A stretch of 64,000 nt of DNA, from contig AP024889.1 of NCBI GenBank assembly GCA_024347015.1, forward strand, positions 1,736,001-1,800,000. The letters run 5' to 3'. Below, piece after piece: positions 21,082 to 43,728 of the stretch. A program made the position numbers and the translations under genes. The stretch is from Vibrio pectenicida. Lineage in GTDB: Bacteria > Pseudomonadota > Gammaproteobacteria > Enterobacterales > Vibrionaceae. Within the stretch, counting starts at the first letter, position 1. Each line of letters starts with the position of its first letter. The notes beneath the pieces were generated by a model. It saw only the letters and a list, made by a program, of their open reading frames with translations. It ran no database searches and was not told the origin of the DNA.

Positions 21082-21117
21082 ATCCTTAAAGCATTAAATT
21101 GCCAAAAACAAAAATTT

Positions 21118-21194
21118 GGGTCCGTAGCTCAGTTGGTTAGAGTACCGCCTTGACATGGCGGGGGTCGGCGATTCGAGTTCGCCCGGACCCACCA
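21118..21194 (+). tRNA. tRNA-Val (anticodon GAC), copy 2
   Basis: This gene is base-for-base identical to the first copy and separated from it by 36 bases, so the two form a tandem unit transcribed from the promoter at 20956. A strong terminator follows eight bases later. Confidence 0.95.
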
Positions 21195-21354: not shown

Positions 21355-22703
21355 GGCTCTTCTCCGCTTAGGTGAACTTGATATTTGGGTAAAAAGTTGA
21401 GTGTGTATCGGGAACCGATGTTTGTCTGATCTTTAATTTGAAATAGTCTGTATCTCTCACCCCTCTTGCTCTTCGTCTGAGTAAGCCAATCGAGACATTA
21501 CCTGCTTCTACCCGAGCGTTAGTCAGCTTGTATTTTCCGTAGTTACAAATACCCACTTTTCTTTCCAATAAAGCATCGGCAAAATTAATTAAGGACAGTA
21601 TTCTGGTCGATTTGGCAAGACGGCACCAAGCTTCTAGAGCTGCCACCATTGTTTCGTAATCGGCTTCATCCCATATGGCTTGTAGCTGCTCTTTGAGCAT
21701 GTAAACAACGCACAAAGTCTTGTTGCTCTCAAGTAAGTCATCAAGTCTGTCAGACTGTCTATCATCCAATTTATGAGCGTTTTTCAGTAGGAGGAAGAGC
21801 GTTCCTTTCAACATCTTTTTCTCGTCGTGAGAGCCATTTCTAAACGCTTTTGTTCTCTCTTTTTTGATTAAGATGCAGTAGTTCTGCATGACATGGAATA
21901 GGTCAAAAACAATATCAGCATTGGGAAGCATTTTCCTGACCGCCGACTGGTAAGACTGACCCATATCCATTGATACTGCTTTGATTCCTGATTTGGTTTC
22001 TTCTGATAGTTGCTCAAAGAAGGGGATCAGAACTTCTGCTTTTCGGCCATGTTCAACCCAAATCAAATGCCCCGAGACAAGGTCATAAACAACCGTCATA
22101 TAATCGTGTCTCTTGGCTATGGCAACTTCATCGACGCCAATATGAACCAAGTTATTCAGTTTCTCGGGGTCTAATGCTGGTAAGCTTGAATGCAAGTATT
22201 CCCTATCGATATTTTTTACTGTTTCCCAGCGAATTCCTAAATGTTGGGAGACGGCATGTATGCTCATATGGCGACATAAGCCACTGATGAACTTGCAAAA
22301 GCGAGCGGTATAACGACCACCTTTAGCCACATATTCAGTCTCTTCGATCAACCGTCGTCCTTCTTTGTCTCTAGTTTTAGCCAGCTCAACTTCAATCGTA
22401 CAAGGTAGCCCACTCACAGGTAAATCTTGAAGACGCCTTTTAACGTAGTGATCGACGGTACAGGAAGCCCCTGATATTGGCTCTTTGACTTTATACCTAC
22501 GGTCTCGACGACAGCTAACGAATACGCTTTGGGACATTTCTTCTATTGAACAAGATTCAACACACTGGCCTTTAAAGCAAAATAACGAGGAAGACAAAGA
22601 CGACAAAATAGACTACTGACTTATTTTTAAAATAAGCATTATAAATCATGTAATTATGATAATTGAGCCTGTGAATACAGACTCATTAAAGCGGAGAAGA
22701 GGC
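21355..22703 (-). mobile_element. ISL3-family insertion sequence, apparently complete
   Basis: The element is bounded by inverted repeats GGCTCTTCTCCGCTT (21355-21369) and its complement (22689-22703), differing at the second base of the tip. GGCTCTTC is the standard ISL3-family tip. It is about 1.35 kb and carries one transposase gene on the minus strand. The flanking octamers (TTTTTTGC and ATTCCGCG) do not match, so no target duplication is visible. The right flank is a different IS fragment, which suggests rearrangement after insertion. A 104-bp copy of the right end recurs at 29672-29775 in inverted orientation. Confidence 0.88.
21368..22606 (-). CDS. ISL3-family transposase
   Basis: The 412-residue transposase has the N-terminal cysteine-rich zinc-binding region (C-x5-C...C-x14-C pattern within residues 9-49), then the DDE catalytic core. 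The three acidic blocks are HIGVDEVA, VSMDMGQSY and NARVEAGN, as in IS204/IS1001/IS1165-type enzymes. The start is uncertain: the open frame begins at a TTG at 22606, close to the right inverted repeat. The frame is intact, so the element could still be active. The stop codon lies within the left terminal repeat. Confidence 0.9.
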   Translation of the reverse strand: MSSLSSSLFCFKGQCVESCSIEEMSQSVFVSCRRDRRYKVKEPISGASCTVDHYVKRRLQDLPVSGLPCTIEVELAKTRDKEGRRLIEETEYVAKGGRYTARFCKFISGLCRHMSIHAVSQHLGIRWETVKNIDREYLHSSLPALDPEKLNNLVHIGVDEVAIAKRHDYMTVVYDLVSGHLIWVEHGRKAEVLIPFFEQLSEETKSGIKAVSMDMGQSYQSAVRKMLPNADIVFDLFHVMQNYCILIKKERTKAFRNGSHDEKKMLKGTLFLLLKNAHKLDDRQSDRLDDLLESNKTLCVVYMLKEQLQAIWDEADYETMVAALEAWCRLAKSTRILSLINFADALLERKVGICNYGKYKLTNARVEAGNVSIGLLRRRARGVRDTDYFKLKIRQTSVPDTHSTFYPNIKFT

Positions 22704-28569: not shown

Positions 28570-29331
28570 TTAAAATTCACACGCTTCAAGCGCTGATATA
28601 TTCTCTCCGGTGTGCATATCTTTGATGGGTCTATTTCCTATATCGCTTGCCGCTATTTCTCTATAGATCACATTATTCATTCCCATTTCAGGGTTGGCAT
28701 CGATTGCTGTCACTTCAAAGAAAGTGTTTCTATTGACTAAGACTTCTAATTCGTCTGTTCTCATATCAGGCATAATTATGGACGCTTCTCCATTGCTAAG
28801 TTCAAACATAGATCTTTGGCCACCGTAAAAACCCTCGGTTGATCTGGCAGACACAGAGGTCGATAGAAAAGTGCTAGGGCTAACAATATCACCCACTTTA
28901 ATTAAACCATCACTGTAGGCCTTTATTAACGACTCACCACGGTAGGTTTCACCTGTAAATTTAATTCCTTGTTCAAACGCTGAATCAATATGCTCAATGA
29001 TGGGGTTTATTTCCTCGGTATTTTCGCCATTGAGTATTGCTCGTCGAATAGCTTGATACCCATTTTGTTGATAATAATTAAGAGCATCAATGGATTCATA
29101 AGATAAAGAATATTGCTGCTGCATTGATGAAGGCTGAAGCCTTGACATTATTTGGTAATACTCATCGACACTTTCTTTTGTAAAAGGGTTGTCTAGTTTT
29201 TCTATTAAATCCTTAATTTCTGCTTTCGAGTAATATCCTTTGTTATATTTCAGGCCAGCAAAACTCGCCGATGAAATAGTGAGAAATGTGACAATGGCAG
29301 TTGAAAAAATAAGTTTAATTAGCAACTTCAC
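28570..29331 (-). CDS. Secreted ADP-ribosyltransferase toxin (Vis-like)
   Basis: The 253-residue protein has a signal peptide (residues 1-25, ending ASFA) and an R-S-E class ADP-ribosyltransferase domain. The NAD-binding arginine is Arg131 in TYRGE, the STS motif is residues 157-159 in FLSTSVS, and the ExE motif is Glu194-Leu-Glu196, followed by the beta-strand NRNTFFEVTAI. The spacing and size agree with the Vis toxin described from V. splendidus. ExE with two glutamates predicts transfer to arginine. It is the first gene of a two-gene operon with an 858-residue exported protein. No immunity gene is obvious nearby, as expected for a toxin aimed at eukaryotic targets. Confidence 0.87.
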   Translation of the reverse strand: MKLLIKLIFSTAIVTFLTISSASFAGLKYNKGYYSKAEIKDLIEKLDNPFTKESVDEYYQIMSRLQPSSMQQQYSLSYESIDALNYYQQNGYQAIRRAILNGENTEEINPIIEHIDSAFEQGIKFTGETYRGESLIKAYSDGLIKVGDIVSPSTFLSTSVSARSTEGFYGGQRSMFELSNGEASIIMPDMRTDELEVLVNRNTFFEVTAIDANPEMGMNNVIYREIAASDIGNRPIKDMHTGENISALEACEF

Positions 29332-29671
29332 TTATACATATCCTTAACATATTAACTTTGTTTAATACATCATACATGCATATTTGTTGACTTATAATGA
29401 TAATACTTATATAACAATGGCTTATTTATACATGCGTTCCAACTTTAGGATATCGACCTTTTATCGAACAAGGATTCTGTCGCTTGCATTATTGTTATCA
29501 GTAACATCATACCCACCACAGAACCGATGGTGTGTTAACTAGAAAGAGATAAAAGTAAGAGCTGTGGTGATCACAGTTTTCCACTATCGAATGTCATGCT
29601 ACTTCAGCACGCCTCTGGACAAAAGTTTGCCAGTGCTTTTGCTAATTTAGTGATCTATGGATTACTTCAAC
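29332..29671. other. Upstream region of the toxin operon
   Basis: This AT-rich stretch has no supported gene. It should hold the promoter of the minus-strand toxin operon: several TATAAT-like elements occur between 29380 and 29420, but I cannot choose one with confidence. Confidence 0.4.
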
Positions 29672-29775
29672 GGCTCTTCTCCGCTTTCATGAGTCTGTAT
29701 GCACAGGCTCATTCATCATAATCACATGATTTATAATGCTTATTTTAAAAATAAGTCAGTAGTCTATTTTGTCGT
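29672..29775 (+). mobile_element. Solitary 104-bp end of the ISL3 element
   Basis: Starting with GGCTCTTCTCCGCTTT, the sequence matches, with few mismatches, the complement of 22600-22703, the right (transposase 5') end of the ISL3 element. The match stops abruptly at GTCGT (29775), just where the transposase coding region would begin. No transposase remains. It is inverted relative to the complete copy, so both copies point their tips toward the toxin region. Confidence 0.88.
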
Positions 29776-29805
29776 ATTTCGTATTAATCAACACGCTCTT
29801 ACTGG

Positions 29806-32520
29806 CTAGCAAGCAATCTTCTCCATTTGTTGAAGTAAAGTGTCGGTTTTAAGTGGCTTAGGAAGATAAGCGTCCATCCCAGAGTCAAAGCAGCGTTGGA
29901 TATCATCATCAAGTACGCTCGCTGTTAGCGCTATAATCGGGGTTTTTGGCAGTCCTGACACGCATTCATGTGCTCGTATCTTTTGTGTCGCTTCAAAGCC
30001 ATCCATAATCGGCATCATGCAATCCATCAAAATGATGTCAAAGCTGTTATCTTGCTTATACATCTCCACGGCCACTTGACCATTTTCTGCAATATCAAAT
30101 TGATACCCCGCTTTACCCAGCATGAGTGATGCCACTTTTTGATTCACATTATTATCTTCCACTAATAAAATGCGTTCAGCTTTGCGATGACTATCCTGAG
30201 TAGTTGGAGCTTGTTTAGGTATGTGACACAAAGAGTTCTCACTAGATAGAGACGGGGCCGCTTTTTCATCCTTAGCCATCCATGCTGTTATCTTTTCTTT
30301 GAGTACATCGGCTTTGAACGGCTTGGGCATATAGTCGTCCATCCCAACCTTATAACACTTCTGAATGTCGTCATCAGCCACACTGGCGGTGAGCGCAATG
30401 ATAGGCACACGCCCTCTATCAGTATCTTCCTGCTCGATTTGGCGAATGGATTGCGTTGCTTCAAAGCCATTTATGATGGGCATCATGCAATCCATCAAGA
30501 TAAGCCCATAACGCTCTTTGCTATACATCTCAACGGCCACTTGGCCATTTTCGGCCACATCAAAACAAAAGCCCGTTTTTTCAACATGTAGGCTCGCCAC
30601 TTTTCGGTTCACACCGTTATCATCTACTATCAGTATCTTCTTCGAATACCTCTCACTGTTTGCCTCTTCAATCGTTTGTGAAGAATGCTCGTGAGAGTCT
30701 TGCTCAAACCGTTCAATGACTTTGATTAAGCGCTGGCCCAGAAGTGGTTGGGTAATTATTGCACTGACATTATCACCAAAATCGTAAGCCCTGCTGTAGA
30801 GGTGCTTCATCACACAAACAGGAATGGATTGGGAAACGATATGTCGAAAATGCTCATTATGATGCTGCGCGGTATCTGGCTTAGTTTCGACATACACGAC
30901 GATGGCATTGCGCTGATTTTTCGCCCACTGAGGTAAGTCGTCCAACCTAGCAACAGACTGGTGAACAGGGATATGGTAGAAGCTCAGCGCTTCACGAATG
31001 ATATGTTCTCGTTTGTTATCATCACACACTAAATACAACTGGCTAAACATTGAGGGACTTCTGGCGTCAACATTTTGCTGAGAAATAGGTAAAGAGAGGG
31101 TAAAGTAGAATCTACTCCCTAGCCCTTTTTTCGAGTCTAATTGAATTCTCCCTCCCATTAATTCAACCAACTGCGTGCTAATGGCGAGCCCCAGACCTGT
31201 GCCTCCAAATTGACGAGTGGTTGAGTCATCTTCTTGGGCAAATGGCTCGAAAATATTTTTTTGTTGCTGCTCATCAATACCAATGCCTGAATCTTGCACT
31301 GAGAACTCGATAGTGGCCTGAGAAGATTCGATTTGGGTGGTGGTGACCGTGAGCTCAACTCTTCCTGAGTCAGTGAACTTCACGGCGTTGGACACAAAGT
31401 TCATGATGATTTGGCGAAGACGATGGTCATCAACCATGACACAATACGGAGTATTGGGGCTGATGGATACCTGAAGGTCAATACGTTTCTCTTTTGCTTT
31501 GGGTGAGACTATCGAAGCAATGTCATAAATAGATTCTCGAACATTGGTGGAATGGGGGGTAATGACCAACATCCCTGACTCAATTTTGGAAAAGTCTAAA
31601 ATGTCATTAATCAAAGTCAGAAGAAGTTGTGATGAGGTTTCGATGGTGTCGACATAGTCACGCTGGGTTGCGGTAAGGGCTGTGTCAGACAATATTTCTG
31701 AAATCCCAATGACGCCATTAAGAGGAGTTCGAATTTCATGTGACATATTTGCGAGAAAGCTACTTTTGGCTTTACTGGCCTTGATGGCCCACTCTTTGGC
31801 TTTCTCGGCTTCGTCTTTCGCTTGGTTAAGCTCTGTATAGTGCGCATCACTGGCGTCACTGAACTCATTAAACTTATCCGCAAGCACCGTGATTTCATCA
31901 TGAAACCAAGAAGATGGCAGAGAAATCCGATTCGTTGCTAAGACATTATGTTCACTCACGGCTTGTTTCATCACGTTGATGCGTCTAATGATGAATAACC
32001 AAGTGAGGGTGAGTACAGCAGAAAGAAGCAAGACAATGCGAATGCTTTCGGCTGAGAGTATATAGAGAAACTGAGACCAAAGGTTGTGATAAATGCGCGT
32101 TAAGTCTGACTGAACTGTCAGGTCTCCGAGTGAATAACGCTTGTTGCCAAACTCATAGTTTAAGGGCCACACCTGAGTCACAGCATTATCAGACAACCGT
32201 TTACCTTGTTCAATCACCGACTGGTTACTTGATGAAATGTGTACATAATCTACTCCCGGTAAGGTTAGCAGTCCTTTCAGTTGAGCAGCGAGTAAATCCC
32301 TGTCTTCAACCCACAAGCTCTCTATTATGCTCGATAGCTGACTGGTTTTGATATGGCTTAATTTTTCGTTAATGTACTGAATATCCAGTTGCAACCGATG
32401 GTGAAGGTTATAACTGGTTGTGGCGATGGCGAGCAGCACACTCATTAAGGTTACGGTGAACAATAGTTTTTTGTTAATACTCAAGTACCGATGTGTCTTT
32501 TTCATAGAAAGCCTAGCCAT
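29806..32520 (-). CDS. Hybrid sensor histidine kinase with two intact receiver domains
   Basis: The 904-residue protein has two membrane helices (about 18-36 and 159-178) around a periplasmic sensor, then a HAMP-like linker and coiled coil, HisKA with His261 in NMSHEIRTPLNG, HATPase with GGTGLGLAIS, a degenerate receiver-like segment, and two full receivers. The receivers are very similar to each other (both contain ILMDCMMPI and ALTASV-DDDIQ), which suggests an internal duplication. There is no HPt domain, so phosphate should pass to a separate HPt protein, and no output regulator is adjacent. Either ATG 32520 or the one at 32505 may start translation. Confidence 0.88.
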   Translation of the reverse strand: MARLSMKKTHRYLSINKKLLFTVTLMSVLLAIATTSYNLHHRLQLDIQYINEKLSHIKTSQLSSIIESLWVEDRDLLAAQLKGLLTLPGVDYVHISSSNQSVIEQGKRLSDNAVTQVWPLNYEFGNKRYSLGDLTVQSDLTRIYHNLWSQFLYILSAESIRIVLLLSAVLTLTWLFIIRRINVMKQAVSEHNVLATNRISLPSSWFHDEITVLADKFNEFSDASDAHYTELNQAKDEAEKAKEWAIKASKAKSSFLANMSHEIRTPLNGVIGISEILSDTALTATQRDYVDTIETSSQLLLTLINDILDFSKIESGMLVITPHSTNVRESIYDIASIVSPKAKEKRIDLQVSISPNTPYCVMVDDHRLRQIIMNFVSNAVKFTDSGRVELTVTTTQIESSQATIEFSVQDSGIGIDEQQQKNIFEPFAQEDDSTTRQFGGTGLGLAISTQLVELMGGRIQLDSKKGLGSRFYFTLSLPISQQNVDARSPSMFSQLYLVCDDNKREHIIREALSFYHIPVHQSVARLDDLPQWAKNQRNAIVVYVETKPDTAQHHNEHFRHIVSQSIPVCVMKHLYSRAYDFGDNVSAIITQPLLGQRLIKVIERFEQDSHEHSSQTIEEANSERYSKKILIVDDNGVNRKVASLHVEKTGFCFDVAENGQVAVEMYSKERYGLILMDCMMPIINGFEATQSIRQIEQEDTDRGRVPIIALTASVADDDIQKCYKVGMDDYMPKPFKADVLKEKITAWMAKDEKAAPSLSSENSLCHIPKQAPTTQDSHRKAERILLVEDNNVNQKVASLMLGKAGYQFDIAENGQVAVEMYKQDNSFDIILMDCMMPIMDGFEATQKIRAHECVSGLPKTPIIALTASVLDDDIQRCFDSGMDAYLPKPLKTDTLLQQMEKIAC

Positions 32521-33253
32521 TATTATTTTGAGTCTTTAATAAAAATAGTCGGTCAGGAGTGAAGTGAAACGGAATGTGGGCTTTTTTTATTCAATAGGCA
32601 CGCAGCCCGCCAGTCAGCGATAGCTCTCATTTCTTCAGCAACATTTAGTTTTTTTGGCTAGACTCATATTAAGAGAGCCAACACGTCTCCTTAATACTGT
32701 AAGTGCATGCTCTCTTTATGTTTAGTGGCCACTGTCTCTGTGGCCTTTTTTCATTCTGCGAACTTATACCACTGCTGTCTAATTAAGACTAGATTGCTTA
32801 GTCGGCTCTAAGAAAGCGTGCAAAGTTAGATATTGTCGATGATGCATTTGATGGCAGCAGGCATTGCTAGGATGATGTGGTCGAGACGACGCCCGAACGT
32901 GAATTGTACCAAAGTACATACTCCGCTTGATCAGGGTTTCTATTGTATCCACGCTTTGTGGTATTGACATCTCCAGAATGCTTGAGATGCTTGAGATGCT
33001 TGATTCTCTATACTAATTACCCTCTTTTAAGTTTGCTATAAACGAGGAGTCTATATTGAATGAGCGGAGCTACAAATACAGCCTCACTGAATTATAACTA
33101 TTTACTGATTTTACGTGGTTTAGCACCGCAAATTAAACTATCAAATCGAGCTAATGAATAATTTTTACCCACATGCATGAAATTGATGTGGGCTTATTGA
33201 TGGTGATGCTTATACCGTGATTGGGGTGTTGCCATTGATGAAGAGCCTCTTTC
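32521..33253. other. 733-bp intergenic region with one terminator-like hairpin
   Basis: No protein gene is supported; the 63-codon frame on the minus strand has no ribosome site or recognisable domain. A plus-strand hairpin with a T-run at 32727-32751 suggests a short transcript. A 9-bp unit ATGCTTGAG is repeated almost three times at about 32978-33002. The rest shows nothing I can name. Confidence 0.5.
32640..32751 (+). ncRNA. Candidate small RNA ending in a rho-independent terminator
   Basis: GGCCAC and GTGGCC (32727-32732 and 32740-32745) form a stem followed by six T, a good terminator with no coding frame upstream on that strand. GAGAG near 32673 can pair with CTCTC near 32710, giving a folded body. 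The 5' end is a guess. It is only a candidate, because no promoter could be assigned. Confidence 0.3.
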
Positions 33254-33970
33254 TTACATAAAACGCCAAATACACTGTCGATTTTGTACATCTGGAACCG
33301 AATGAAAATGAGTAGAGTCGTCACTAACCCACAATTCAGAGCCAGCCGAATAAATAGGTTTGTATATGTTTTTTATTGGAATGTACCATTCTCCAAACTC
33401 TTCCATAACAATTGCTGATGAAGGTTTTTTATCTGAATGACGTTGTTTAATTCTGTGAGAAAGCATCACTTGATGAGAAAAAACACCCTCACCGATATAA
33501 TTACCTTCCAATGGAAAACCTAACAAAACAATATTCGACACTTTACCTGAGTCTTGATGCCATGAGTGAGTTAACCTTCTATTTGGTTGTGTTATCTCCA
33601 TCACAGAGCCTGTCACATTATTTCCACATAATGACCATATTTTGTATAAAAACTCTTTTCCTGAGATATTAACTCCAGAGCTATAAAATATTTTCGTTAT
33701 TGAATTGAGTGTTTCATTATTAAGCTCATCTTTATACACCATAAAAGAGAACTGGTCTGATATATTTAATTTTTTTATTGCGTTTACGTTCAAAAAAAAA
33801 CACTTAAGAGCATGGCGTAGCTTAAGCCTTAAATGGTCATTTTTCCACGCAAAACCAATGCCTTTACCAGGGAATAGAGTTTCCAAGGAAACATAACTAC
33901 CGTGATGAACTACCACACTTTCATCTTGCCTCAGAGCTTTGGGTACTCTCCAAATGTTCAAATCTTTCAT
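33254..33970 (-). CDS. PhyH-like Fe(II)/2-oxoglutarate oxygenase
   Basis: The 238-residue protein's core resembles phytanoyl-CoA dioxygenases. The metal-binding HxD is in SWHQDSGK (about residues 136-143), the distal histidine is most likely in HFHSVPDVQN near the C-terminus, and the arginine expected to hold 2-oxoglutarate follows in RQCIWRF. It has no signal peptide. The ATG lies two bases after the stop of the psaC-like gene, so translation is probably coupled. Substrate is unknown. A role together with the ferredoxin-like PsaC is an inference from operon structure only. The assignment to the double-stranded beta-helix oxygenases is moderate. Confidence 0.6.
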   Translation of the reverse strand: MKDLNIWRVPKALRQDESVVVHHGSYVSLETLFPGKGIGFAWKNDHLRLKLRHALKCFFLNVNAIKKLNISDQFSFMVYKDELNNETLNSITKIFYSSGVNISGKEFLYKIWSLCGNNVTGSVMEITQPNRRLTHSWHQDSGKVSNIVLLGFPLEGNYIGEGVFSHQVMLSHRIKQRHSDKKPSSAIVMEEFGEWYIPIKNIYKPIYSAGSELWVSDDSTHFHSVPDVQNRQCIWRFM

Positions 33971-33972
33971 CT

Positions 33973-34218
33973 TTAATAAGCCAATCCCAGTGAACGAGTT
34001 GTCTCTGCCCCTAGATATACTCGAACAGACAAGAAATCAGTTGGACATGCGGTCTCACAGCGTTTGCACCCCACGCAGTCTTCCACTCTAGGTGCAGAAG
34101 CAATTTGACCAGAACCATTATTATCCCATACTACCATTTCCAAAACATCCGTCGGACATGCTCTTACACATTGAGTACACCCAATACAAGTATCATAAAT
34201 TTTTACTGTATGTGACAT
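33973..34218 (-). CDS. psaC: Photosystem I iron-sulfur subunit PsaC homologue (2[4Fe-4S])
   Basis: This 81-residue protein is canonical PsaC length and nearly canonical in sequence. It begins [17 protein letters not shown], has [12 protein letters not shown], and ends with the PSI-specific tail [12 protein letters not shown]. All eight cluster ligands are present: Cys11, 14, 17 and 58 for one cluster and Cys21, 48, 51 and 54 for the other. The difference from plant, algal and cyanobacterial PsaC is concentrated at residues 30-36: PWDGCK is replaced by VWDNNG, removing the non-ligand Cys34 and Lys35. A perfect AGGAGG precedes the ATG by six bases. It is the middle gene of a tight operon (HAF-repeat protein, this gene, PhyH-like oxygenase). 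No other photosystem gene is in the window. It is probably a transferred gene now serving as a soluble dicluster ferredoxin. Confidence 0.95.
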
Positions 34219-34237
34219 GATAAACCTCCTAGTTTAC

Positions 34238-35332
34238 CTATACATTGCTGACATCCCACGTAGCTGCTCTAATTTCACCATTAGATTTTTCACTTACCCC
34301 GCAAGCTATGTTATTGTCATTAATAGATATTACTGATCCTTTATTGCCTCCAAGTCCCTTTAAAAATCTCACCCTGCCATCCTTGTACACGAATGCCCCT
34401 ATATCTCTTGCTCCTGTAATATAGTTGCCCACGGCAACACCAAAAGTATTGACAGATAAAAACTTAGAAAAAGAGTTCCCCAGCCCTGTAACTAAATTAA
34501 AGTTATCTCCGTCCCAGTATGAAGCTTGGTACCTTCCTTGGCTATTTTTTACGGCTCCAAAAATAGTCCCCCCAGCAGACATGCCCACGGCCAAAGATTC
34601 TTCGACGCCTCTAGGAACTGTCAGCACAACTGGACTATCTTCAAAATTTTCCCAGATAGCGGCTTGCCCAAATACTCCATTAATTTGCGTAATTTGCCCC
34701 ACAATTATTCCTGTATCATTTACACCATTAGCGCTTCCAGAAAACCCCTCTGGAGTAAGAAGTTTCTTAGCTTTCACACTATTTTTTAGATTCCAGTACA
34801 CAGGAAAGTCAAATTTATTTTCCGTAGATACGCCAACAACTAAATCTTTATCATTGCACCCTAAAGCTTTGCTGCGCTCATTGTTTTTTAATCCTGACAA
34901 AACTTCTAGTTTACCGGCAGTCCAGAGGGAGGCATTTAATACACCTTTTTTATTTTGATATACACCGCACGCTACTCCTAAAGGACTCGTTCCCAAAGCC
35001 TGAGACATTTGTGCATTGGTTGAGTTGTTAGGCCCGTCTAGAATCTCATACGATAGATCTTCATTCCATCTAACCGCTCTATCCATTCCTGATAAAAGTT
35101 GCCCTTCTGAATCAATGATTCCAATATTTTCATCTTTGATCAAACCAAATATTTTACCTTCGCCAGATATTGCTACCGCTGCAGGGAACTTGCCCTCAAA
35201 TCCCGGCAACTCTCTGGGTTCAATACCCAATGATTTTTTAGCGTATACCGAAGGTGAATTTAGTGGTAATGCAGTCGTAAAGAGGGTGGCTGAAGACACT
35301 TTCAAAAATTTTCTACGAGATAAATTCCACAT
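34238..35332 (-). CDS. Tat-exported HAF-repeat protein
   Basis: The 364-residue protein has a twin-arginine signal, SRRKFLK, at residues 5-11, followed by a hydrophobic stretch and an alanine-containing cleavage region near residue 31. The mature part is made of repeated units of about 45-50 residues. Their ends read like IVGQI, VVGVS, AVGNY and ACGVS after an N-D/G turn, the pattern of the extracellular HAF-repeat family, probably a beta-propeller-like fold. Tat export implies folding, perhaps with a cofactor, before secretion. It is the first gene of the psaC operon; 19 bases separate it from the psaC-like gene. AAAGGA precedes the ATG. No enzymatic motif is visible. Confidence 0.75.
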   Translation of the reverse strand: MWNLSRRKFLKVSSATLFTTALPLNSPSVYAKKSLGIEPRELPGFEGKFPAAVAISGEGKIFGLIKDENIGIIDSEGQLLSGMDRAVRWNEDLSYEILDGPNNSTNAQMSQALGTSPLGVACGVYQNKKGVLNASLWTAGKLEVLSGLKNNERSKALGCNDKDLVVGVSTENKFDFPVYWNLKNSVKAKKLLTPEGFSGSANGVNDTGIIVGQITQINGVFGQAAIWENFEDSPVVLTVPRGVEESLAVGMSAGGTIFGAVKNSQGRYQASYWDGDNFNLVTGLGNSFSKFLSVNTFGVAVGNYITGARDIGAFVYKDGRVRFLKGLGGNKGSVISINDNNIACGVSEKSNGEIRAATWDVSNV

Positions 35333-35713
35333 AGCATTATCCTTTTGTTAAACATGCCGACAGTCACTAGTGCTAGATAGTCGCTATCTATAATCCTTAT
35401 CTTACTAGTCAGCAAACTTTCTAAGATCAGGCTTATCATTATGAGCAATGTTTAATATAGACTGAACGGGGACAAAGTGTACTAGGAAATTCTTGTGTAC
35501 CCAACTTAAGTACAAAAATACACCAATCACTGGCTTTTCAATCAGAGTGATCACTAATCAATAATCAATAATCAATAATCAATAATCAATAATCAATAAT
35601 CAATAAAGGAATATGATATAACAAAATAGAATATAAAAATATGAATATTGATGCATATCCACTTCTATTATTTTGAAGGCTGATGCCTTTCATTGAATAA
35701 TAAAGGAAGATCT
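35333..35713. other. Divergent intergenic region with tandem repeat and leader hairpin
   Basis: This region separates the minus-strand psaC operon from the plus-strand secreted-protein gene. It contains a 49-bp heptamer tandem repeat (35555-35603), a TATGAT -10-like element at 35612-35617 directly after it, and a small hairpin AAGGC-TGAT-GCCTT at 35676-35689 in the leader of the downstream gene. Confidence 0.6.
35555..35603 (+). repeat. Seven perfect copies of the heptamer TAATCAA
   Basis: Seven uninterrupted TAATCAA units occupy 49 bp. The array lies 110 bp before the ATG of the secreted protein at 35714 and abuts a TATGAT element at 35612. A perfect microsatellite at such a place is prone to slippage and could vary promoter spacing. 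Confidence 0.95.
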
Positions 35714-37060
35714 ATGTATAAGTTAACTAGAACAACGTTGGCAATTATAGGATTTCAATCTTTTTTAATCCCGAACTTGGCTAACTCAACACCAATCCCT
35801 GATACTCCGCCACAATGGTACCAAGGAAATCAGGATTATATCCTCAGTAATCCGATATCGGCGTGTCAATCTTTCAACGACAACGTTGCTTTGATAAATG
35901 CTCACATTGCCGCAAACTATCCTTCTGGTTCAGCACAAATGTACGAACAGTTGTGTACTAGCTTTCGTGTCAATGAGATTCAAGTTGAAGATTCGGTAGA
36001 CTACATTACGTGGGTAGCAGCTTATCCCGACTATAGCATTATTGACTCTGTAGATATGGCAAGGACGATAGATATCCTAGTTTTTTCAGGTACTGGAAAG
36101 ACCAACTACATGATGATCATCAATGGTGGAGCAGACTTAGTTGAGCAGGATATTTTGGAGCCAGGTTGGGATTCTTGGACTGGTATTGATATGGCACCGT
36201 TCCATTACCAGCGAGATCATTGGTTCGGTAACAATTGGCACGGTACCAACCAAAAGAGCTATATATCCGGAGAGATAGCTTTAAATAATGCCAAAGAAGA
36301 TGCAGATGATTTTTTCCAAGGTCAATCACCAACTGAAGAAGAATACAATACGAAAGTATTAGAGTTTTTGTCAGATGAGTGTACAAATTTAGGAAACTCT
36401 AACTGTATTCCCGGAGGAGGTTCGGGTAATTCAGGCTACCTTATTTATGAAGAGTCCTATCCGGGTGATACCTATGAGGATAAATACGTTAACGTGGCAA
36501 CATCTCAAGGTATGAGTTTCAATATAGGAGGATCTTTTGAAGCTGACGAAACAGGAAGTTTAACAGCGGGGATGTCCGTCGATATAGGCTATGAAACATC
36601 AACGTCGCAGTCTCAAGACCTAGCTATGTTTTTCGTAAGTAATTTTGCTGGTCAGAATGATGTTTCTAGCGTAAAAGAATACCAAGTATCAGCTAATGCC
36701 GTGTTAGCTGTTGAAGACAGCAATGTGATTTCATATAAAGATGATGAGTGGAACTACAGAGTTGATAATGCAGATGAAGCATACGGGTCAAATACTTGGA
36801 GAAAGCATGACCTTGAATCTATCGATGTTTGGACAGAAAATGTAAATAACTCAAATTGTACTGATGAGCCTATTGTCATTGCTCATACTCTTAACTTAGC
36901 ACGTTCTACAATCGATATAGATAATGGCAGTATAGATTCAGATGATACTCAGACTGTAAATTATCGCTTTGATTACGGTACATTGATTAATATGGTCTGT
37001 GAAACCGATAGTGAAAACCAAACAGTCAAAGCTGTCGCACTCGGTAATTTATACAACTAA
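35714..37060 (+). CDS. Secreted protein, possible beta-pore-forming toxin
   Basis: The start is ATG 35714 with AAAGGAAG upstream, giving 448 residues; the frame reaches back to a TTG at 35693. A signal peptide ends near residue 26. Near residues 270-310 an alternating polar/hydrophobic segment (SFNIGGSFEADETGSLTAG, then MSVDIGYETSTSQSQ) looks like the membrane-inserting hairpin of leukocidin- or aerolysin-type toxins, but the rest shows no clear homology that I recognise. Four to six cysteines suggest disulfides. It is followed after 15 bases by a 159-residue exported protein, so the two may form one unit. Toxin function is a tentative reading. Confidence 0.5.
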   Translation: MYKLTRTTLAIIGFQSFLIPNLANSTPIPDTPPQWYQGNQDYILSNPISACQSFNDNVALINAHIAANYPSGSAQMYEQLCTSFRVNEIQVEDSVDYITWVAAYPDYSIIDSVDMARTIDILVFSGTGKTNYMMIINGGADLVEQDILEPGWDSWTGIDMAPFHYQRDHWFGNNWHGTNQKSYISGEIALNNAKEDADDFFQGQSPTEEEYNTKVLEFLSDECTNLGNSNCIPGGGSGNSGYLIYEESYPGDTYEDKYVNVATSQGMSFNIGGSFEADETGSLTAGMSVDIGYETSTSQSQDLAMFFVSNFAGQNDVSSVKEYQVSANAVLAVEDSNVISYKDDEWNYRVDNADEAYGSNTWRKHDLESIDVWTENVNNSNCTDEPIVIAHTLNLARSTIDIDNGSIDSDDTQTVNYRFDYGTLINMVCETDSENQTVKAVALGNLYN

Positions 37061-37075
37061 TAAGGAAGTTAGATT

Positions 37076-37555
37076 ATGAAGATAGTAAAGGCGATGACCG
37101 CATTATTAATGGTATGTCCTCTCTGGGCTCATAGTGCAAAAATTCAAGTAAAAACAATTGGGATGGATGGATCCGAGCACCAAGTTGTTAATGAGTTGAA
37201 GAAGTACCACAATAAAAATATGATAGTTGGCGATTGTGGCAACAAAGTAGAAATTAATTGTCAAGGCAACGACAAGGTTGAAGTACTACTAATCAATACA
37301 TTAAACCCATCAGTTAACTACGACAATCCTGGTGTGCTTAATAAAATTAAAAAGTCAGATTGGACAGTATTAATTGGAGGCTATGCAGCTAACCAAACGG
37401 CGTCATTCAAATTACTTGGTTACGGAGTAAGCAAGAGTATAGTCGCTATAAAAAAACCTGGCGATAGAGTGAATATGGAACTATTCACGTACCGTTACAA
37501 CGCAGAGACATTGAATTCAAAACTTGCCTCTAAAATGGTGGATTCATTCCTCTAG
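37076..37555 (+). CDS. Small exported protein, unknown
   Basis: The 159-residue protein has a signal peptide (residues 1-20, ending AHSA). The mature domain contains two cysteines (GDCGNKVEINC) and a central GGYAANQTASFKLLGYG stretch. It is 15 bases downstream of the secreted protein at 35714 with AAGGAAG before the ATG, so the two are co-transcribed. It could be a chaperone or co-factor of its neighbour. No family is recognised. Confidence 0.6.
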   Translation: MKIVKAMTALLMVCPLWAHSAKIQVKTIGMDGSEHQVVNELKKYHNKNMIVGDCGNKVEINCQGNDKVEVLLINTLNPSVNYDNPGVLNKIKKSDWTVLIGGYAANQTASFKLLGYGVSKSIVAIKKPGDRVNMELFTYRYNAETLNSKLASKMVDSFL

Positions 37556-37952
37556 CATAAACTATAGCAAGGTGGTTTCTTCTTTTCTTGATAGTATCGA
37601 TGCCCCTAGTCGACTAACAAAGGAGAAACCATCAATTAAAGAAATTCTCTACACAAGATAACGGGTATCATTTCAATCAAAGTGAACCCCATATTGCTTT
37701 GTCAAATGATGTTCTCCTCCACTTATTCGGCATCATCCTAACAAGGAAACACTCTTCAACAGGGCCATTGTGCGAATGGCAACAACTGGCTTAGCGAGCG
37801 ACAATATTGATTGATTTTTCACTGAACTGACCTTTATTGAGAGTGCAGGGTTTTTTACCTTTATAGGTGCATACATGCACATCATTTTAGCAAGGAGCAT
37901 AATAAAAATGTTCATTACCCTAATGTAAAGAGATGTAAACCCTCTATTTCAC
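37556..37952. other. Intergenic region without supported genes
   Basis: This stretch lies between convergent genes. It contains only short frames with no ribosome sites. A loosely repeated pair, GGTGGTTTCTTC at about 37571 and GGAGAAACCATC at about 37621, could pair into a long hairpin and act as terminator of the plus-strand pair. Confidence 0.4.
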
Positions 37953-38102
37953 CTACATTCTGGACCAGTAGTCTTCCCATGCTTTGTGACAGGTGCGGTC
38001 ACACTGTTGACTACTGGGAGTGGGTAAGTTTGGTGGACTTTCACTGACAGAATGGGCTGAATACAACAAAGCACCAATAATGGTTATCAATCTGAAATTC
38101 AT
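37953..38102 (-). CDS. Small exported peptide, 49 residues
   Basis: ATG 38102 is preceded by AAGGAAAAGGAA, an excellent ribosome site. The peptide has a hydrophobic leader (MNFRLITIIGALLYSAHSVS) and a mature part of about 29 residues that is proline/serine-rich, with a C-x3-C motif (QQCDRTCHKAW). It lies 36 bases downstream of the S74-domain gene on the same strand and is probably co-transcribed. It may be a disulfide-containing secreted peptide; no homologue is known to me. Confidence 0.6.
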   Translation of the reverse strand: MNFRLITIIGALLYSAHSVSESPPNLPTPSSQQCDRTCHKAWEDYWSRM

Positions 38103-38138
38103 TTCCTTTTCCTTAATTTTCTGAACAAGTTCACCGGT

Positions 38139-38561
38139 TTATTTAGCATTCAGCTTTGGATTTGAGGATTCAGCAAGCATCAACTGTAACGTATCGATAC
38201 GTGTCTGCTGCTCCTTGATGGCTTCTAGTAAGATTGGGATCATAGAACGATAGTCTACCCTGAGATATCCTGACTGGCCGTCATCTCGAACCATTTCTGG
38301 ATAGATACCTTGTAAGTCTTGAGCTATGAACCCAAACTCTGTTTGGTCTGAGCCTTTTAATTGGTAACGAACACCTTGGATGGTGCGTATTTTTTCAATT
38401 GGCGATTGAATGGCTTCTATATTCGTTTTCAAGTTTCTATCACTGCACCATGGTTGGAATTTATCGCTGCAGCGCTTGGGTACCTCATCTAGGCTCGCGA
38501 AGGCCATAGATGAGAACAAAATCAAGGACGATGCGGTAACAGAAGGGAAAGATTTAAGCAT
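38139..38561 (-). CDS. Exported stand-alone S74 (endosialidase chaperone) domain protein
   Basis: ATG 38561 has AGGA upstream; the GTG at 38573 is an alternative start. The 140-residue protein has a signal peptide (ending AFAS). Its remainder is the intramolecular chaperone/peptidase S74 domain: SDRNLKTNIEAI with the serine-aspartate and lysine typical of the self-cleaving site, GFIAQDLQGIYPEMV, VDYRSMIPILLEAIKEQQ and a short coiled-coil tail. This domain normally ends phage tail spikes and large adhesins and cleaves itself off. Here it is almost the whole protein and carries a secretion signal. Confidence 0.8.
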   Translation of the reverse strand: MLKSFPSVTASSLILFSSMAFASLDEVPKRCSDKFQPWCSDRNLKTNIEAIQSPIEKIRTIQGVRYQLKGSDQTEFGFIAQDLQGIYPEMVRDDGQSGYLRVDYRSMIPILLEAIKEQQTRIDTLQLMLAESSNPKLNAK

Positions 38562-38825
38562 TATGTTCCTCACTGCTGTTTGAAAGCTGAGTTAAAGGTC
38601 GCCTACAAACAGTACGTTGTATTCGTGTTATTTTTAAATTAAGCGTCTATTCAACCATACCTTATTAACTAACTTAAGAGTAAAGCCAAGCAAAAACAAT
38701 CAACGGAATCAACATCATAAATAGTGTCAATATTATTAACCATTTACATTATATTTAATTCAATAGTTTTACCTATCTATTGGTTGTGATATAAACCAAC
38801 TTTTCTCCAACATACGTATAACATT

Positions 38826-39233
38826 ATGAAAAATAAGTCTATTATCACTCTCGGCGCTCTACTGATTACATCCGCAACGTTTGTCAATGCTTCAACTTTT
38901 GTTTACTGTGGCCGCCCCGACGGGAGCGATTGGGATTGGCTTCTCGACACTTATGACAACTACGAAACGATTCACGGACAGTGGGCACGAATGACGGAGG
39001 TAAACCACCGATATTTCAATGTGTTCCGTGTCAGTGAGGCAGAATTTCAGTCAAAAGCATTCAGATGTCCAGCTGGGTACATCCCTCACCCTGCAGAAAG
39101 TGGCACTTCCCGTTGGGAAATATTTGAAATCGTAAGGCAAGACGGATCCCGTTATTTGATTGATGGCTACAAAACCTACTATTCCATCACAACCAATCAG
39201 GTCACCAGTAACCACTATTTTCGTTCACTTTAG
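38826..39233 (+). CDS. Small secreted protein, paralogue of the one at 41271
   Basis: The 135-residue protein has a signal peptide (residues 1-22). The mature domain starts TFVYCGRPDGSDWDWLL and holds a second cysteine in FRCPAGYIPHP. It shares with the protein at 41271 the order V-Y-C, G-D/S-x-W, an aromatic/leucine run, an F-x-V/I segment and a second Cys about 55 residues later. It lacks a clear Shine-Dalgarno site. Unknown function; likely periplasmic or secreted with one disulfide. Confidence 0.65.
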   Translation: MKNKSIITLGALLITSATFVNASTFVYCGRPDGSDWDWLLDTYDNYETIHGQWARMTEVNHRYFNVFRVSEAEFQSKAFRCPAGYIPHPAESGTSRWEIFEIVRQDGSRYLIDGYKTYYSITTNQVTSNHYFRSL

Positions 39234-39301
39234 ATAAACTTTAAAATCTGTAAGGGTTCAGGTCCAAAAGGCTAGGAATAGGCTTAGCTTTTTGAATCGA
39301 C

Positions 39302-41014
39302 CTATGATTCTTCATGAACGCGCGTTTTCTGATGTTCGACATCCGGCACAATAGAGAGCGATGTCCCCACCGCTCCCCTCTCGTGAATCGCTTGATTACG
39401 GCCGTTATTTTTCGCTTCATAAAGTGCAATATCTGCCGCTTTGATGAGCTCTGTCGGAGAGCTGGGTAAATCAGGATACGTCGCCACCCCAATCGATACC
39501 CCTAATTGACCCAAGGAAATTCCCTGCATGCTCAGGTGCAAGCTTCCAACAGCCTCCACAATCTGGTCGGCTAACTTCATTGCCGGCTCCACTGAACAGC
39601 GAGGACAGATTATCGCCAACTCTTCTCCCCCCAACCGGCAGGCCGTATTGTGCTCACCAATTTGATGCGTCAGCAAGCTGGCCACCTCTTTCAGTACGTA
39701 ATCGCCAGCATCGTGACCATAATTATCGTTAAAGCGCTTAAAGTGATCGAGATCCAGCATAAGCAATGACATATCTAAATCTTTTTGGGACGCATTCAAC
39801 CAGGCTTTTTCGAACGTTTCTTCAAAATATCGGCGGTTGTACAAACCCGTTAGAGGATCTCGCATCGCTTGAGAGCGTAATTTATCTTGTAAACTCAAGT
39901 TCGCCAGCGCTAACCCCAAATGCTCTGCAATTGTAAAGGCCAGCTGCTTTCTTTCTTCTGATAGAGTGTCAGTACTGGTGTCGAGATACAAATGAAACAT
40001 ACCCACCGTATTACCATGAGCCGTCAAAGGAATACATAAGGTTAAATCGTTTTGACAACACGCCATATGAGGGCAAGGCAGTTGATGACTGTCATCTTTA
40101 GACAAATGGTAACGCCCTTTCCGCAAGGCCCAACACTCATTGGTCCCATAGACTTTATCAGCCGGCCATGTACCTCCCCAATCTAAGCTCACTTCCAACT
40201 GATTGCGTGATTCTTTCATGACTGCGACACAGCCATTGATGGGTCCAAGTAGCCTCGGGATAATGTCCGATATCACCGTTTGGGCTTCTTTAAGGTTACT
40301 ACAAGCGGCTAACATATTCGCTAATTGGTGAAGGTGTTCGATTTCCCTCATACTTTTCTGTATACGGTATTCCTGAAGGTCTTGCTCTGCCCTGACAGAG
40401 TTAAAGATTTTGCGGTGGCTTACCCAAGTCGACAGCACTAAAATACCTAAAGACAATAACATCAGAAGATGTTCAATCAGTTTGAGATCCGACGACATGG
40501 CATACAATGCCGTCATCGGCATAGACAATCTGAGCACATACTCTTCTCCCGTATCAGCCTCACCGCGCAGTGTTAACCGTTTGGCAATATATAACAGCTC
40601 TTGATTCATCGAGGCGCTAAACCGTTTAGACTGTCCCCACCCAGTTGAAAACGCACTGACGACTTCGGGTCTGAGGCTATGATCTTCCAGCTTGAGAACT
40701 TGCTTATGTGTGAGCTGTGAATCCCCCAAGACTTGACCCTGACTGTCTATGATGGAAAAACGTTGCTCTACCTTTGCTTGAGATAAGTTATCCAAGAAGT
40801 TGTCAATCTCTGATTGATCCATATCGTTGAGTACCAGACCACGCTGATGAATCTGATGGTCGACGTCATCAACCAAATTAGACATGTAGTTACTGACGAT
40901 ATTGGTCAACCAGTTATCCAATATTCTGTCGTAGTAGTACCCTCCAACAATCATAGAGAGCGTGAGAGCAATGATGGGAAAATATTGCAAACGACCGAAA
41001 GAGGTATTAGACAT
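39302..41014 (-). CDS. Membrane GGDEF diguanylate cyclase with GAF-like domain
   Basis: ATG 41014 with TAGGA upstream is preferred to the TTG at 41029. The 570-residue protein has two membrane helices (about 10-28 and 178-197) around a periplasmic sensor, then a coiled coil, a GAF-like domain with several cysteines (about 240-380), and a C-terminal GGDEF domain with the active motif GGEEL. The RxxD inhibitory site expected just before it is absent (GEHN), so product inhibition should be weak. It would raise c-di-GMP, which favours biofilm. Confidence 0.87.
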   Translation of the reverse strand: MSNTSFGRLQYFPIIALTLSMIVGGYYYDRILDNWLTNIVSNYMSNLVDDVDHQIHQRGLVLNDMDQSEIDNFLDNLSQAKVEQRFSIIDSQGQVLGDSQLTHKQVLKLEDHSLRPEVVSAFSTGWGQSKRFSASMNQELLYIAKRLTLRGEADTGEEYVLRLSMPMTALYAMSSDLKLIEHLLMLLSLGILVLSTWVSHRKIFNSVRAEQDLQEYRIQKSMREIEHLHQLANMLAACSNLKEAQTVISDIIPRLLGPINGCVAVMKESRNQLEVSLDWGGTWPADKVYGTNECWALRKGRYHLSKDDSHQLPCPHMACCQNDLTLCIPLTAHGNTVGMFHLYLDTSTDTLSEERKQLAFTIAEHLGLALANLSLQDKLRSQAMRDPLTGLYNRRYFEETFEKAWLNASQKDLDMSLLMLDLDHFKRFNDNYGHDAGDYVLKEVASLLTHQIGEHNTACRLGGEELAIICPRCSVEPAMKLADQIVEAVGSLHLSMQGISLGQLGVSIGVATYPDLPSSPTELIKAADIALYEAKNNGRNQAIHERGAVGTSLSIVPDVEHQKTRVHEES

Positions 41015-41270
41015 ACAATTCCTAGCCAAAGGAGAAGTTGTTAATAGAGTATAGTATGAGGGGCTGCCTGCGGTGATAAATTGCGGACTATTTAGGCATT
41101 TTACAACGGCGTTTCACAGATAAGTGATTCATTACGCATCTAGATTGACCTTATAAGTAGACTCAACTAATCATATCCATTGTGATGCTTATTCAAGGAA
41201 TATTGAAATAAAAATACTTTTTCATGTTAAAAGTGTTAAATGCCGAAAAATCAACACGATATCACTACAC

Positions 41271-41690
41271 ATGAAACAATGTATTACCTACAGCTTACTT
41301 CTCGTATCACTCCTTTTTTCTCGTTTCCTACTAGCCTGTCAAGAGACAAGTCCATCCACGGTAAAAGTCTATTGCACCAATACCACTGGAGACACATGGG
41401 GATACCTAAGATACATTGATCAAGAAATTTACACAGTACGAGGGCTGAAAGGTGCTGTGCCTATACTCAATGGTAATTTTGTTGAGTACTTCAAAATAAG
41501 AGACAGTGATTACAACAGGTTTTCAATCCTTTGTCGTGATGCCGCTGAATTAGGTGGAATACCGGATGTTAATATTCCAAGACCCGCTTGGGGGTTAAAT
41601 AATAATTGGTATTTGTTCGCTAAAGAGGATGGTTTGGTTAATGATGGAAGCCTCTACACTCAGTTTGGTGGTGACAGCTACTGTGATTAA
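41271..41690 (+). CDS. Small secreted protein, paralogue of the one at 38826
   Basis: The 139-residue protein has a signal peptide of about 22 residues. The mature region holds VKVYCTNTTGDTWGYLRYID, a second cysteine in ILCRDAAELGG, and a C-terminal GDSYCD. The cysteine and aromatic pattern parallels the protein at 38826 at low identity. Both flank the diguanylate cyclase gene at 39302. No strong ribosome site precedes the ATG. Function unknown. Confidence 0.6.
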   Translation: MKQCITYSLLLVSLLFSRFLLACQETSPSTVKVYCTNTTGDTWGYLRYIDQEIYTVRGLKGAVPILNGNFVEYFKIRDSDYNRFSILCRDAAELGGIPDVNIPRPAWGLNNNWYLFAKEDGLVNDGSLYTQFGGDSYCD

Positions 41691-42040
41691 AAGCAATGTC
41701 TGAAAACACAATCGGAGCTTGGGCCAGATTCATTACATCAAGCTTTTTAAATTCAGATTACGGCAAGTGATAGTTAACGAGCCCCATCAATGGGATTCGG
41801 GATAACAAAGTTATCAGGATAAGATGAATCAAACAATTTTTATTAATTAAAAGTGCATAACAGTGCACATGACTCGAAAGGAAACAAACTTCAGTGATCA
41901 TTAAAACGAGTAAAAGTCGTTGAGTATCAAATTAACTGTCTAAAAATTAGGTTGTTAAAGAAAATTTCAATTTTCCCTTGAAAACCACATATGATACTAG
42001 ATATTTATAGTTACATTTGTATCATTAGGTAAGGTGTCGT
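41691..42040. other. Intergenic region before the chemotaxis-type gene
   Basis: No gene is supported. AT-rich sequence near 41990-42015 probably holds the promoter of the downstream gene, with TATGATACT near 41989 as a -10-like element. Confidence 0.4.
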
Positions 42041-43339
42041 ATGTGGCCATTTCCATCCAATCTTCAAAACTCAAACAACCCGCCCCCCACTCTTAATGAC
42101 TTCATTGTTGCTTCGCTCAAACAATCGTTGGCAACAATAGAGTTTGACCCGAAAGGGCATATATTATCAGCCAGCCCTCACTTTTTAAAAGCCATGGGAT
42201 ACGGATTAAAAGAGATAGAAGGCCAACATCATCGAATATTCTGCGAATCAAGTTACGCACAAAGCAAGGAGTATCGTCAATTTTGGGCCTCTCTTGCTCA
42301 GGGCCAGTTTAAATCAGGGACGTTTGAACGCTATAACAAATCGGGAGACTTAGTAGTCATCGAGGCCACCTATTTCCCTATCACGAATAGTGACGGAAAG
42401 ATTGAAAGGGTAATGAAAATTGCCAGCGATGTCACTGAACAAGTAACTCAAGCTCGTTCACAAAAAGACATCATCGCCGCGCTCAATCAAAACTTTGCGG
42501 TCATTGAGTTTGAAACTGATGGGACCATTATCAATGCCAATGAAAACTTTCTTCAGGGCCTAGGATATAATGCTGATCAAATAGTCGGCCAACACCACAA
42601 AATGTTTTGTTTTGACGACTTCTATCAAGCAAATCCAAACTTCTGGAAGCAACTGAGTAGCGGTCAAGCCTCCTCTGGGCGATTTTTGAGAAAAACACAG
42701 CATGGCGATAATTTATGGATACAGGCTTCATATAGTCCAATACGTAATGCCAAGGGTGAGGTCTACAAGATTGTTAAGTTCGCCTCTGACATCACCCAAG
42801 ACGTTGAAAGAGAGCAAGCCATCTCTGATGCCGCCAACGTTGCTTATAGTACGGCAGTAGAAACCTCTCAAGTTGCTCAGGAGGGTAACCAAGTACTTAA
42901 AGGGACAGTCAGTATCTCACAAAAAATGGTAGACAACCTTACGGGTTCAATTTCAAAGGTCGAAGAGCTAGCGTCGCTGTCTAACGATGTTTCCGAAATA
43001 GTAAAAACCATTGGTGGCATTGCCGATCAAACCAATCTGTTAGCACTCAATGCCGCTATAGAAGCTGCCCGAGCGGGTGAGCAAGGCCGAGGATTTGCGG
43101 TTGTGGCAGATGAGGTACGTCAATTAGCTTCCAGAACGTCAGAATCTACGGAAGAAATCACACAAGTCGTCGAAAAAAATATGTCATTGACGGCAGAAGT
43201 GACTAAAGCGATTATTGAGGTCAATAAAATTGCAGAAGAAGCCAATACCAAAATAGAAGAAGTGTCTTCTACCATGGATGAGATTTACACAGGTGCAGAA
43301 AATGTGGCTTCCGCAGTTGACCAATTTAAAGACCGTTGA
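42041..43339 (+). CDS. Soluble PAS-PAS methyl-accepting transducer (BdlA-like)
   Basis: The 432-residue protein lacks membrane segments. It has two tandem PAS domains (about residues 20-140 and 142-262), both containing a G-Q-H-H-x-x-F-C motif, and a chemoreceptor signalling domain with the hairpin core [20 protein letters not shown] and [15 protein letters not shown]. This architecture and size match BdlA, the biofilm dispersion factor of Pseudomonas. It may sense redox or c-di-GMP state through the PAS pair. AAGGT precedes the ATG. Confidence 0.88.
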
Positions 43340-43728
43340 GAACATAGCTAGGGACTGTCTGATTATAACACCTTGTTAACAATAACATCATTCTCTCTAG
43401 GTTGCCCTCACACATAGCTATGTCTCGGTTTCTGAGGCTCCAGAACTTTGCAAGAACCAACTTCACTGGACACTAATCTGATTAGAAAAAGTATGTAAAA
43501 TATCCAACCTTAAAACGTTCTAGAAAAATGCTCTAGCTCAAAAAGGGGCATTTTCGATTTAGAAAGTACCTTTCCCCACAAGAGGCCACCAATTTCTTCT
43601 ATGCAGTGAGGTGAGAACCTACTCTACTGATGCCATCGCTGTTTGTGTGCGAACTCCCATATCAAATTCTCAGCTTTTAAGCCATTAGTGGTAAACTCAA
43701 TCCACGCCCATAATTCAATGTAGACACA
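43340..43728. other. Intergenic region without supported genes
   Basis: There are no frames with ribosome sites. A 15-base sequence CTGATTAGAAAAAGT at about 43475 also occurs at about 23335 after the hydrolase gene, too short to name an element. GAAAAATGC-TCTAG-type pairing near 43520-43550 (TGCTC... and GGGGCATTTT) may form a weak hairpin. Confidence 0.4.

Follow-up and report, generated by a model that had tools for sequence, protein, structure and literature searches.

How does a Vibrio come to carry psaC, and what could the gene be doing there? PsaC is usually regarded as a component that functions within photosystem I, and in the 64,000-nucleotide stretch of Vibrio pectenicida contig AP024889.1 analyzed here (the window) a first-pass annotation, made from the letters alone, had reported a psaC gene captured by a heterotroph and kept intact as a soluble electron carrier.

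A complete PsaC in a genome lacking PsaA/PsaB matches

The ORF lies on the minus strand exactly where the first-pass annotation had placed it (33973-34218) and runs from an ATG start through 81 codons to a TAA stop. Its product scores 170.1 bits against the NCBIfam PsaC model TIGR03048 (cut-off 130.65 bits), covering positions 1-80 of the 80 in the model, with the runner-up NCBIfam family, the oxidoreductase subunit OorD, at 43.8 bits. All eight cluster cysteines are there (C11, C14, C17, C21 and C48, C51, C54, C58), making up both CxxCxxCxxxCP motifs, and the photosystem I-specific C-terminal tail of 12 residues is present, aligning without a gap to PDB entry 6l4u_C. That entry is the top solved structure for the Vibrio protein, aligned over the whole length at 167 bits with 76 of 81 residues identical and five different, and it belongs to photosystem I from a diatom, Chaetoceros gracilis (PMC9000952). 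By family score, cysteines, length and tail alike, the Vibrio gene is a complete PsaC, as had been claimed. Bacterial 2[4Fe-4S] ferredoxins and RnfB/NuoI-type dicluster proteins share the two cluster motifs but differ in that the Vibrio protein has the photosystem I-type tail, and an ordinary bacterial ferredoxin is ruled out by the 170 bits for PsaC against 43.8 for the best other family.

Table 1. Features of the psaC locus, with positions counted in the window
Feature	Position	Strand	Basis or remark
psaC, photosystem I iron-sulphur subunit, 81 aa	33973..34218	-	GC 42.7%
Rewritten ferredoxin-docking loop, codons 30-35, VWDNNG replacing PWDGCK	34114..34131	-	alignment
AGGAGG, Shine-Dalgarno-like, 6 nt before psaC start	34225..34230	-	sequence
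Upstream 364-aa protein, Tat-type leader (SRRKFLK ... VYA, by eye)	34238..35332	-	sequence
Downstream 238-aa protein, H138-x-D140 ... H223 ... R231	33254..33970	-	motif by eye
Heptamer ATCAATA, 8.1 copies, upstream of the trio, between trio and divergent gene	35550..35606	.	repeat scan
13.8-kb segment with the trio, without a match at the equivalent locus of sister species G070	29780..43544	.	synteny
Inverted copy, 93% over 111 nt, of an IS256-like element end; left edge of the segment	29669..29779	.	

The genome comprises 4,539,399 bases in four contigs, with completeness of 100% and contamination of 0.07%, and psaC sits inside a contig of 3,227,122 bases, not on a stray one. With the host species represented by one genome, the TIGR03048 cut-off was passed in one of 227 Vibrio species genomes, that of the host alone; in every one of the 227, other Fe-S proteins match the model weakly, the best beside the host reaching 30.6 bits. 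A class-wide sample again returned only the host, one of 369 genomes over the cut-off (E limit 1e-15). The gene is accordingly not a widespread Vibrio gene, and the counter-case raised at first pass, that many related Vibrio might carry it, fell away. The accompanying remark that no photosystem gene lies nearby holds for the photosystem I core across the genome: a search for PsaA/PsaB (PF00223) gave no match anywhere in the host, and among 14 control genomes Synechococcus alone matched. Unlike the PsaC of diatom and other ochrophyte plastids, such as that of Chaetoceros gracilis, with which it shares its 81 residues, eight cysteines, N-terminus and C-terminal tail, the Vibrio protein resides in a host without PsaA/PsaB, and its gene is set in an unrelated trio. 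It is PsaC by sequence, yet no working photosystem I subunit.

Mobile elements were considered as carriers. In public phage records psaC was found in one phage, cyanophage P-TIM68 (two records), whose protein is 84% identical; viral contigs gave one PsaC match, 84% over 55 residues on a contig that ends there, and plasmid records gave three, each below 60% identity. Neither the 13.8-kb segment (near mode) nor the trio (distant mode) matched plasmid records. On these records, plasmid or phage cargo is rejected. The P-TIM68 gene resembles the Vibrio case in being a photosystem I gene moved by horizontal transfer, but at 84% identity and in a phage of a photosynthetic host.

A rewritten docking loop, a tight gene trio and codon usage

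For residue-level comparison we combined the best 120 of 652 protein matches with the best 80 of 576 genome loci, giving 200 sequences and 105 haplotypes, a set biased to close relatives. Within this set the nearest haplotype matches the Vibrio protein at 76 of 81 residues and is common to five entries, proteins P0002 and P0003 and loci L001, L002 and L003; an exact match was found neither among the listed protein matches nor among the compared loci. L001, L002 and L003 are filed in Synechococcus, Crocosphaera and Pelagibacteraceae bins, respectively. Judging by frames named mostly by eye, namely a ClpC-type frame on the psaC contig of L001, ribosomal-protein and tufA frames on that of L002, and a ccsA-type frame beside psaC in L003, these look like plastid contigs. 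Their presence in bacterial bins is likely misbinning in public genomes.

Relative to this nearest haplotype, as to diatom PsaC, the Vibrio protein carries five substitutions, P30V, G33N, C34N, K35G and S42A, four of which fall within residues 30-35 (chance of four of five in six residues, P ~0.002). Residue 35 is lysine or arginine in all 105 other haplotypes of the best 120 of 652 and 80 of 576 matches (K in 81, R in 24), and glycine in Vibrio. In numbering without the initial methionine this lysine is Lys34, which contacts Phe38 of ferredoxin in the ferredoxin-bound photosystem I structure; the K34D mutation abolishes fast electron transfer to ferredoxin (PMC9467995). The same paper names I11, G12, Q15, R18, A56, P58 and Ala35 as further ferredoxin contacts of PsaC. 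Most of those so named are retained in Vibrio (positions 12, 13, 16, 19, 57 and 59), and the counterpart of Ala35 is Ser36, as it is in the nearest plastid-type rows of the best 120 of 652 and 80 of 576 matches. A ninth cysteine, Cys34, has become asparagine; Asn34 also occurs in seven of the 105 haplotypes of that best-match set, three of which carry an additional residue, and the loss of Cys34 appears less telling than that of Lys35. The basic residue at position 35 that serves ferredoxin docking is thus missing from the Vibrio protein, whereas the face that docks to photosystem I is fully retained. In this respect the first-pass wording, that the gene was kept intact, was not entirely accurate. 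With the docking loop rewritten and the key lysine lost, the same partner cannot be assumed.

The gene is the middle member of a tight same-strand trio: the upstream gene ends 19 nt before it and the downstream gene starts 2 nt after its stop codon. No AGGAGG was present in the 60 nt before psaC of L001-L003, with L001 showing a weaker AAGGA. The packing and the AGGAGG site together suggest that the trio is one transcript, so that its three genes would form a single operon; a scan for consensus promoters and terminators gave no more matches than in shuffles. The ATCAATA repeat ahead of the trio could alter promoter spacing, switching the trio or its neighbor on or off.

Genes seem to be gained and lost often in the surrounding 13.8-kb segment. 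The closest species compared, G070, is 89% identical over 47.8-55.4 kb, and synteny with it runs from 43545 rightwards and, on another G070 contig, leftwards up to 29670. At both edges G070 has other genes, including an apparent type I secretion set (by eye), and no clean empty site is seen in G070, whose two matching stretches are split between contigs. On host contig C3 there are relatives, at 73-81% DNA identity, of two genes in the segment.

At the DNA level, Vibrio psaC is identical to L001-L003 at 188, 188 and 182 of 243 positions. By the NG86 method, dN against these plastid rows is 0.08-0.10, and dS is near saturation at 1.5 (L001) and 2.2 (L003) and undefined for L002. The codon-usage log-ratio of the whole gene, +3.3, falls between the simulated 95% ranges for Vibrio (7.2 to 37.1, from 17 genes of the window) and for plastid genes (-24.3 to -6.8, from a small reference of 1332 codons), as expected of a gene partly adapted to its host. 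Its halves differ, codons 1-40 leaning toward plastid (-5.3) and codons 41-81 toward Vibrio (+8.7). Both neighbors favor Vibrio over plastid codon usage, by 25 and 55 nats, with a per-codon preference of 0.11 and 0.16 as against 0.43 for the sensor kinase gene at 29806.

In the 192 alignment columns where the three plastid rows agree, 17 changes found only in Vibrio lie in synonymous codons (nine to GC, one to AT, seven other), and 10 further Vibrio changes lie inside the five substituted codons. When neutral change was simulated with eight synonymous changes, more than five residue changes arose in 98.8% of 1000 runs (five or fewer, P 0.012). If at least about half of the synonymous changes arose in Vibrio, PsaC would therefore have been under purifying selection there. 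Alternatively, an algal donor outside the sample could already have carried the synonymous changes when the gene was transferred, and selection in Vibrio would then not follow. On balance, this is probably a captured plastid gene that selection has kept.

The main rival to such retention is that psaC was captured recently from a plastid, has no function and is drifting, carried along in a variable part of the chromosome with a mobile-element remnant at its border. A passenger would fit a gene found over the cut-off in one Vibrio species of 227, in a segment that the sister species lacks there and that is flanked by an IS end. It would also fit a photosystem I-docking face left unchanged though unused, a first half still plastid-like in codon usage, and an altered loop in which codons 33-35 are all rewritten, possibly in one event. 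Nevertheless, the frame is intact with every cluster ligand in place, psaC has the AGGAGG site and spacings of only 2 nt and 19 nt to its neighbors, codon usage over the whole gene lies outside the simulated plastid range, and the residue changes are clustered, not spread. We regard a drifting passenger as unlikely, and retention of the captured gene by selection as the better account.

Origin of the gene

The first-pass annotation was reminded of algal plastid or cyanobacterial sequences and advised a tree, and the closest sequences did prove to be of plastid, diatom-like type. S36, V45, V65 and L77 are common to the Vibrio protein and the nearest plastid-type group, whereas at the cyanobacterial loci compared residue 36 is A, residue 45 mostly T and residue 77 mostly M. 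In a DNA tree of 81 rows, Vibrio psaC groups with L001-L003 at support of 100/99, and this grouping persists after removal of the loop codons and in a tree built from codon positions 1 and 2 only. A protein tree of 102 rows places Vibrio PsaC in a set of 14 (support 97/94), one member of which, P0014, bears a diatom name starting "Thalassion".

These trees carry limits of their own. Eighty-one codons hold little phylogenetic signal, the Vibrio terminal branch in the DNA tree is long (0.94), L001-L003 fail the tree program's check of letter make-up in the 81-row DNA tree, and bootstraps are unsettled in the protein tree and in the trees without loop codons or on positions 1 and 2. Two alternative topologies pass the AU test: one in which the plastid rows form a clade that excludes Vibrio (p 0.222), and one in which Vibrio joins the cyanobacteria (p 0.109). 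Because of these points, a plastid origin is likely, not proven, and since the plastid-type DNA rows in the trees number only three (L001-L003), the donor can be named no closer than diatom-like. Horizontal transfer of psaC from the plastid of a diatom-like alga into the Vibrio chromosome is the likely route that the sequence comparisons point to.

A capture from a cyanobacterium or cyanophage instead is quite improbable. Such a source would agree with the psaC carried by cyanophage P-TIM68 and with the cyanobacterial placement that the AU test leaves standing, but the phage protein is 84% identical as against 94% for the nearest plastid-type haplotype (best 120 of 652 and 80 of 576 matches), the residues at positions 36, 45 and 77 side with that haplotype and mostly not with the cyanobacterial loci compared, and three DNA trees and one protein tree all group Vibrio with plastid-type rows.

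Among the protein matches, P0001 is a 118-aa metagenomic PsaC in which the first cluster motif is duplicated, giving three motifs and 12 cysteines.

A predicted electron carrier and its neighbors

If the gene has been retained, its likeliest use is predicted from two observations: with no photosystem I core gene in the host and the residue for hand-over to ferredoxin lost, PsaC should be a free electron carrier. It is expected, by analogy, to act as bacterial 2[4Fe-4S] ferredoxins do. Folding and holding of clusters outside photosystem I is known for PsaC, since a solution structure of the free protein has been solved and PsaC made in E. coli rebinds to photosystem I cores (PMC12214013). In Vibrio, the protein would be produced, receive its clusters from the Fe-S machinery of the host, be under selection, and carry electrons on its two [4Fe-4S] clusters to a partner other than plant-type ferredoxin. 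We give about even weight to the reading that the captured plastid psaC now encodes such a soluble 2[4Fe-4S] carrier, with a new partner that is most likely one of the neighbors.

Which neighbor would be the partner depends on what the two flanking genes encode, and neither has a convincing homologue. The downstream protein has no family match in Pfam, NCBIfam or PHROGs. Its HxD ... H ... R arrangement, as read by eye, resembles the signature of Fe(II)/2-oxoglutarate oxygenases, and this motif suggests that the gene could encode one. The likeness is to oxygenases of the phytanoyl-CoA hydroxylase kind; the protein differs from them in that it lacks a Pfam, NCBIfam or PHROG match and has a single PDB match, at chance level (E 1). 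Viral contigs, plasmids and phages yielded no match to this gene, and 227 Vibrio genomes yielded four weak, short ones (E 1.3e-4 to 0.009 per single genome), two of them within 942-aa frames and two with internal stops. The upstream protein bears a weak resemblance to DUF3466, below cut-off, and its leader also scores under the cut-offs for the Pfam TAT_signal model (14.7 against 22.7 bits) and the NCBIfam equivalent (9.9 against 16.7). A Pfam/NCBIfam search detected no redox domain in it, PDB gave no match, plasmid records gave one weak match (26% identity, E 0.03), and the 227 Vibrio genomes gave none at E 0.001. For both neighbors, a search of a large protein set for relatives sharing 5-residue words returned only the query itself, and the predicted structures are too poor to be usable, with mean pLDDT of 32.7 (downstream) and 31.6 (upstream).

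Between the two, the downstream HxD ... H protein would be the most likely partner, either receiving electrons from PsaC or having its iron kept reduced by it. The alternative partner is the Tat-leader protein, which could take PsaC over the membrane in the way that certain other Fe-S cluster subunits are exported. The fullest version of the carrier reading, in which a plastid psaC was domesticated as the carrier of a new three-gene redox system, its docking loop re-cut for a new partner and the rest held by selection, is tentative, falling somewhat short of an even chance. The observation that fits a carrier least well is the intact photosystem I-docking face, which would reflect either a recent transfer or a new use of that face.

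A variant in which the trio acts outside the cytoplasm, with PsaC and the Tat-leader protein exported jointly through the inner membrane for an extracytoplasmic redox step, seems a poor prospect. The upstream gene does encode an SRRxFLK leader, and the order of a Tat protein followed by an Fe-S dicluster protein recalls known respiratory operons, but here the Tat protein shows no redox domain in Pfam or NCBIfam and its leader stays under both signal cut-offs. An assembly chimera or algal contamination is very improbable: algal DNA is common in marine samples, but psaC is embedded in the 3.2-Mb contig of a complete four-contig genome with minimal contamination, between genes that fit Vibrio codon usage better than plastid usage, the codons of psaC itself fall beyond the simulated plastid range, and no listed or compared sequence matches it exactly.

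What is new here is the host, the gene setting and the lost lysine, the protein family itself being known. A word search of the open-licence literature showed, among the titles and abstract openings listed, no psaC in a heterotrophic bacterium, which is no proof of absence. The copy in a bacterium without a photosystem I core shows that a plastid-type photosynthesis gene can enter a heterotroph's chromosome, and it offers an instance of likely plastid-to-bacterium transfer that can be tested directly. With the ferredoxin lysine gone, nature has set up an experiment that can separate the parts of PsaC needed for docking from those needed for electron transfer.

Several other features of the window were recorded. 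The IS element at 21355-22702, an inverted end fragment of which is found at 29669-29779, is 98% identical to a copy on host contig C3; that copy shares 97.9% identity with an element of a Vibrio anguillarum plasmid, annotated as IS256-like, ISVa19 family. C3 is 111 kb long and probably a plasmid, with a 19-kb stretch partly matched by five plasmid records, all from Vibrio, which supports a Vibrio as the host. The hybrid sensor kinase gene at 29806-32520 has copies 73-74% identical on C3 and at C1:451527. The 455-aa product of 35693-37060 begins with what by eye resembles a signal sequence and matches nothing in Pfam, NCBIfam or PHROGs, and 38139-38573 encodes a 144-aa protein in which residues 44-96 form the sole clear domain, an S74 chaperone domain of endosialidase type, with no tail-fibre portion. 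At 28570-29331, a 253-aa protein scores over the cut-off for an ADP-ribosyltransferase exoenzyme family and adjoins an 858-aa protein without an over-cut-off family match, both being 98-99% identical in G070. Finally, two tandem tRNA-Val(gac) genes, identical over 80 nt, lie at 21005-21194, near the edge of the variable region.
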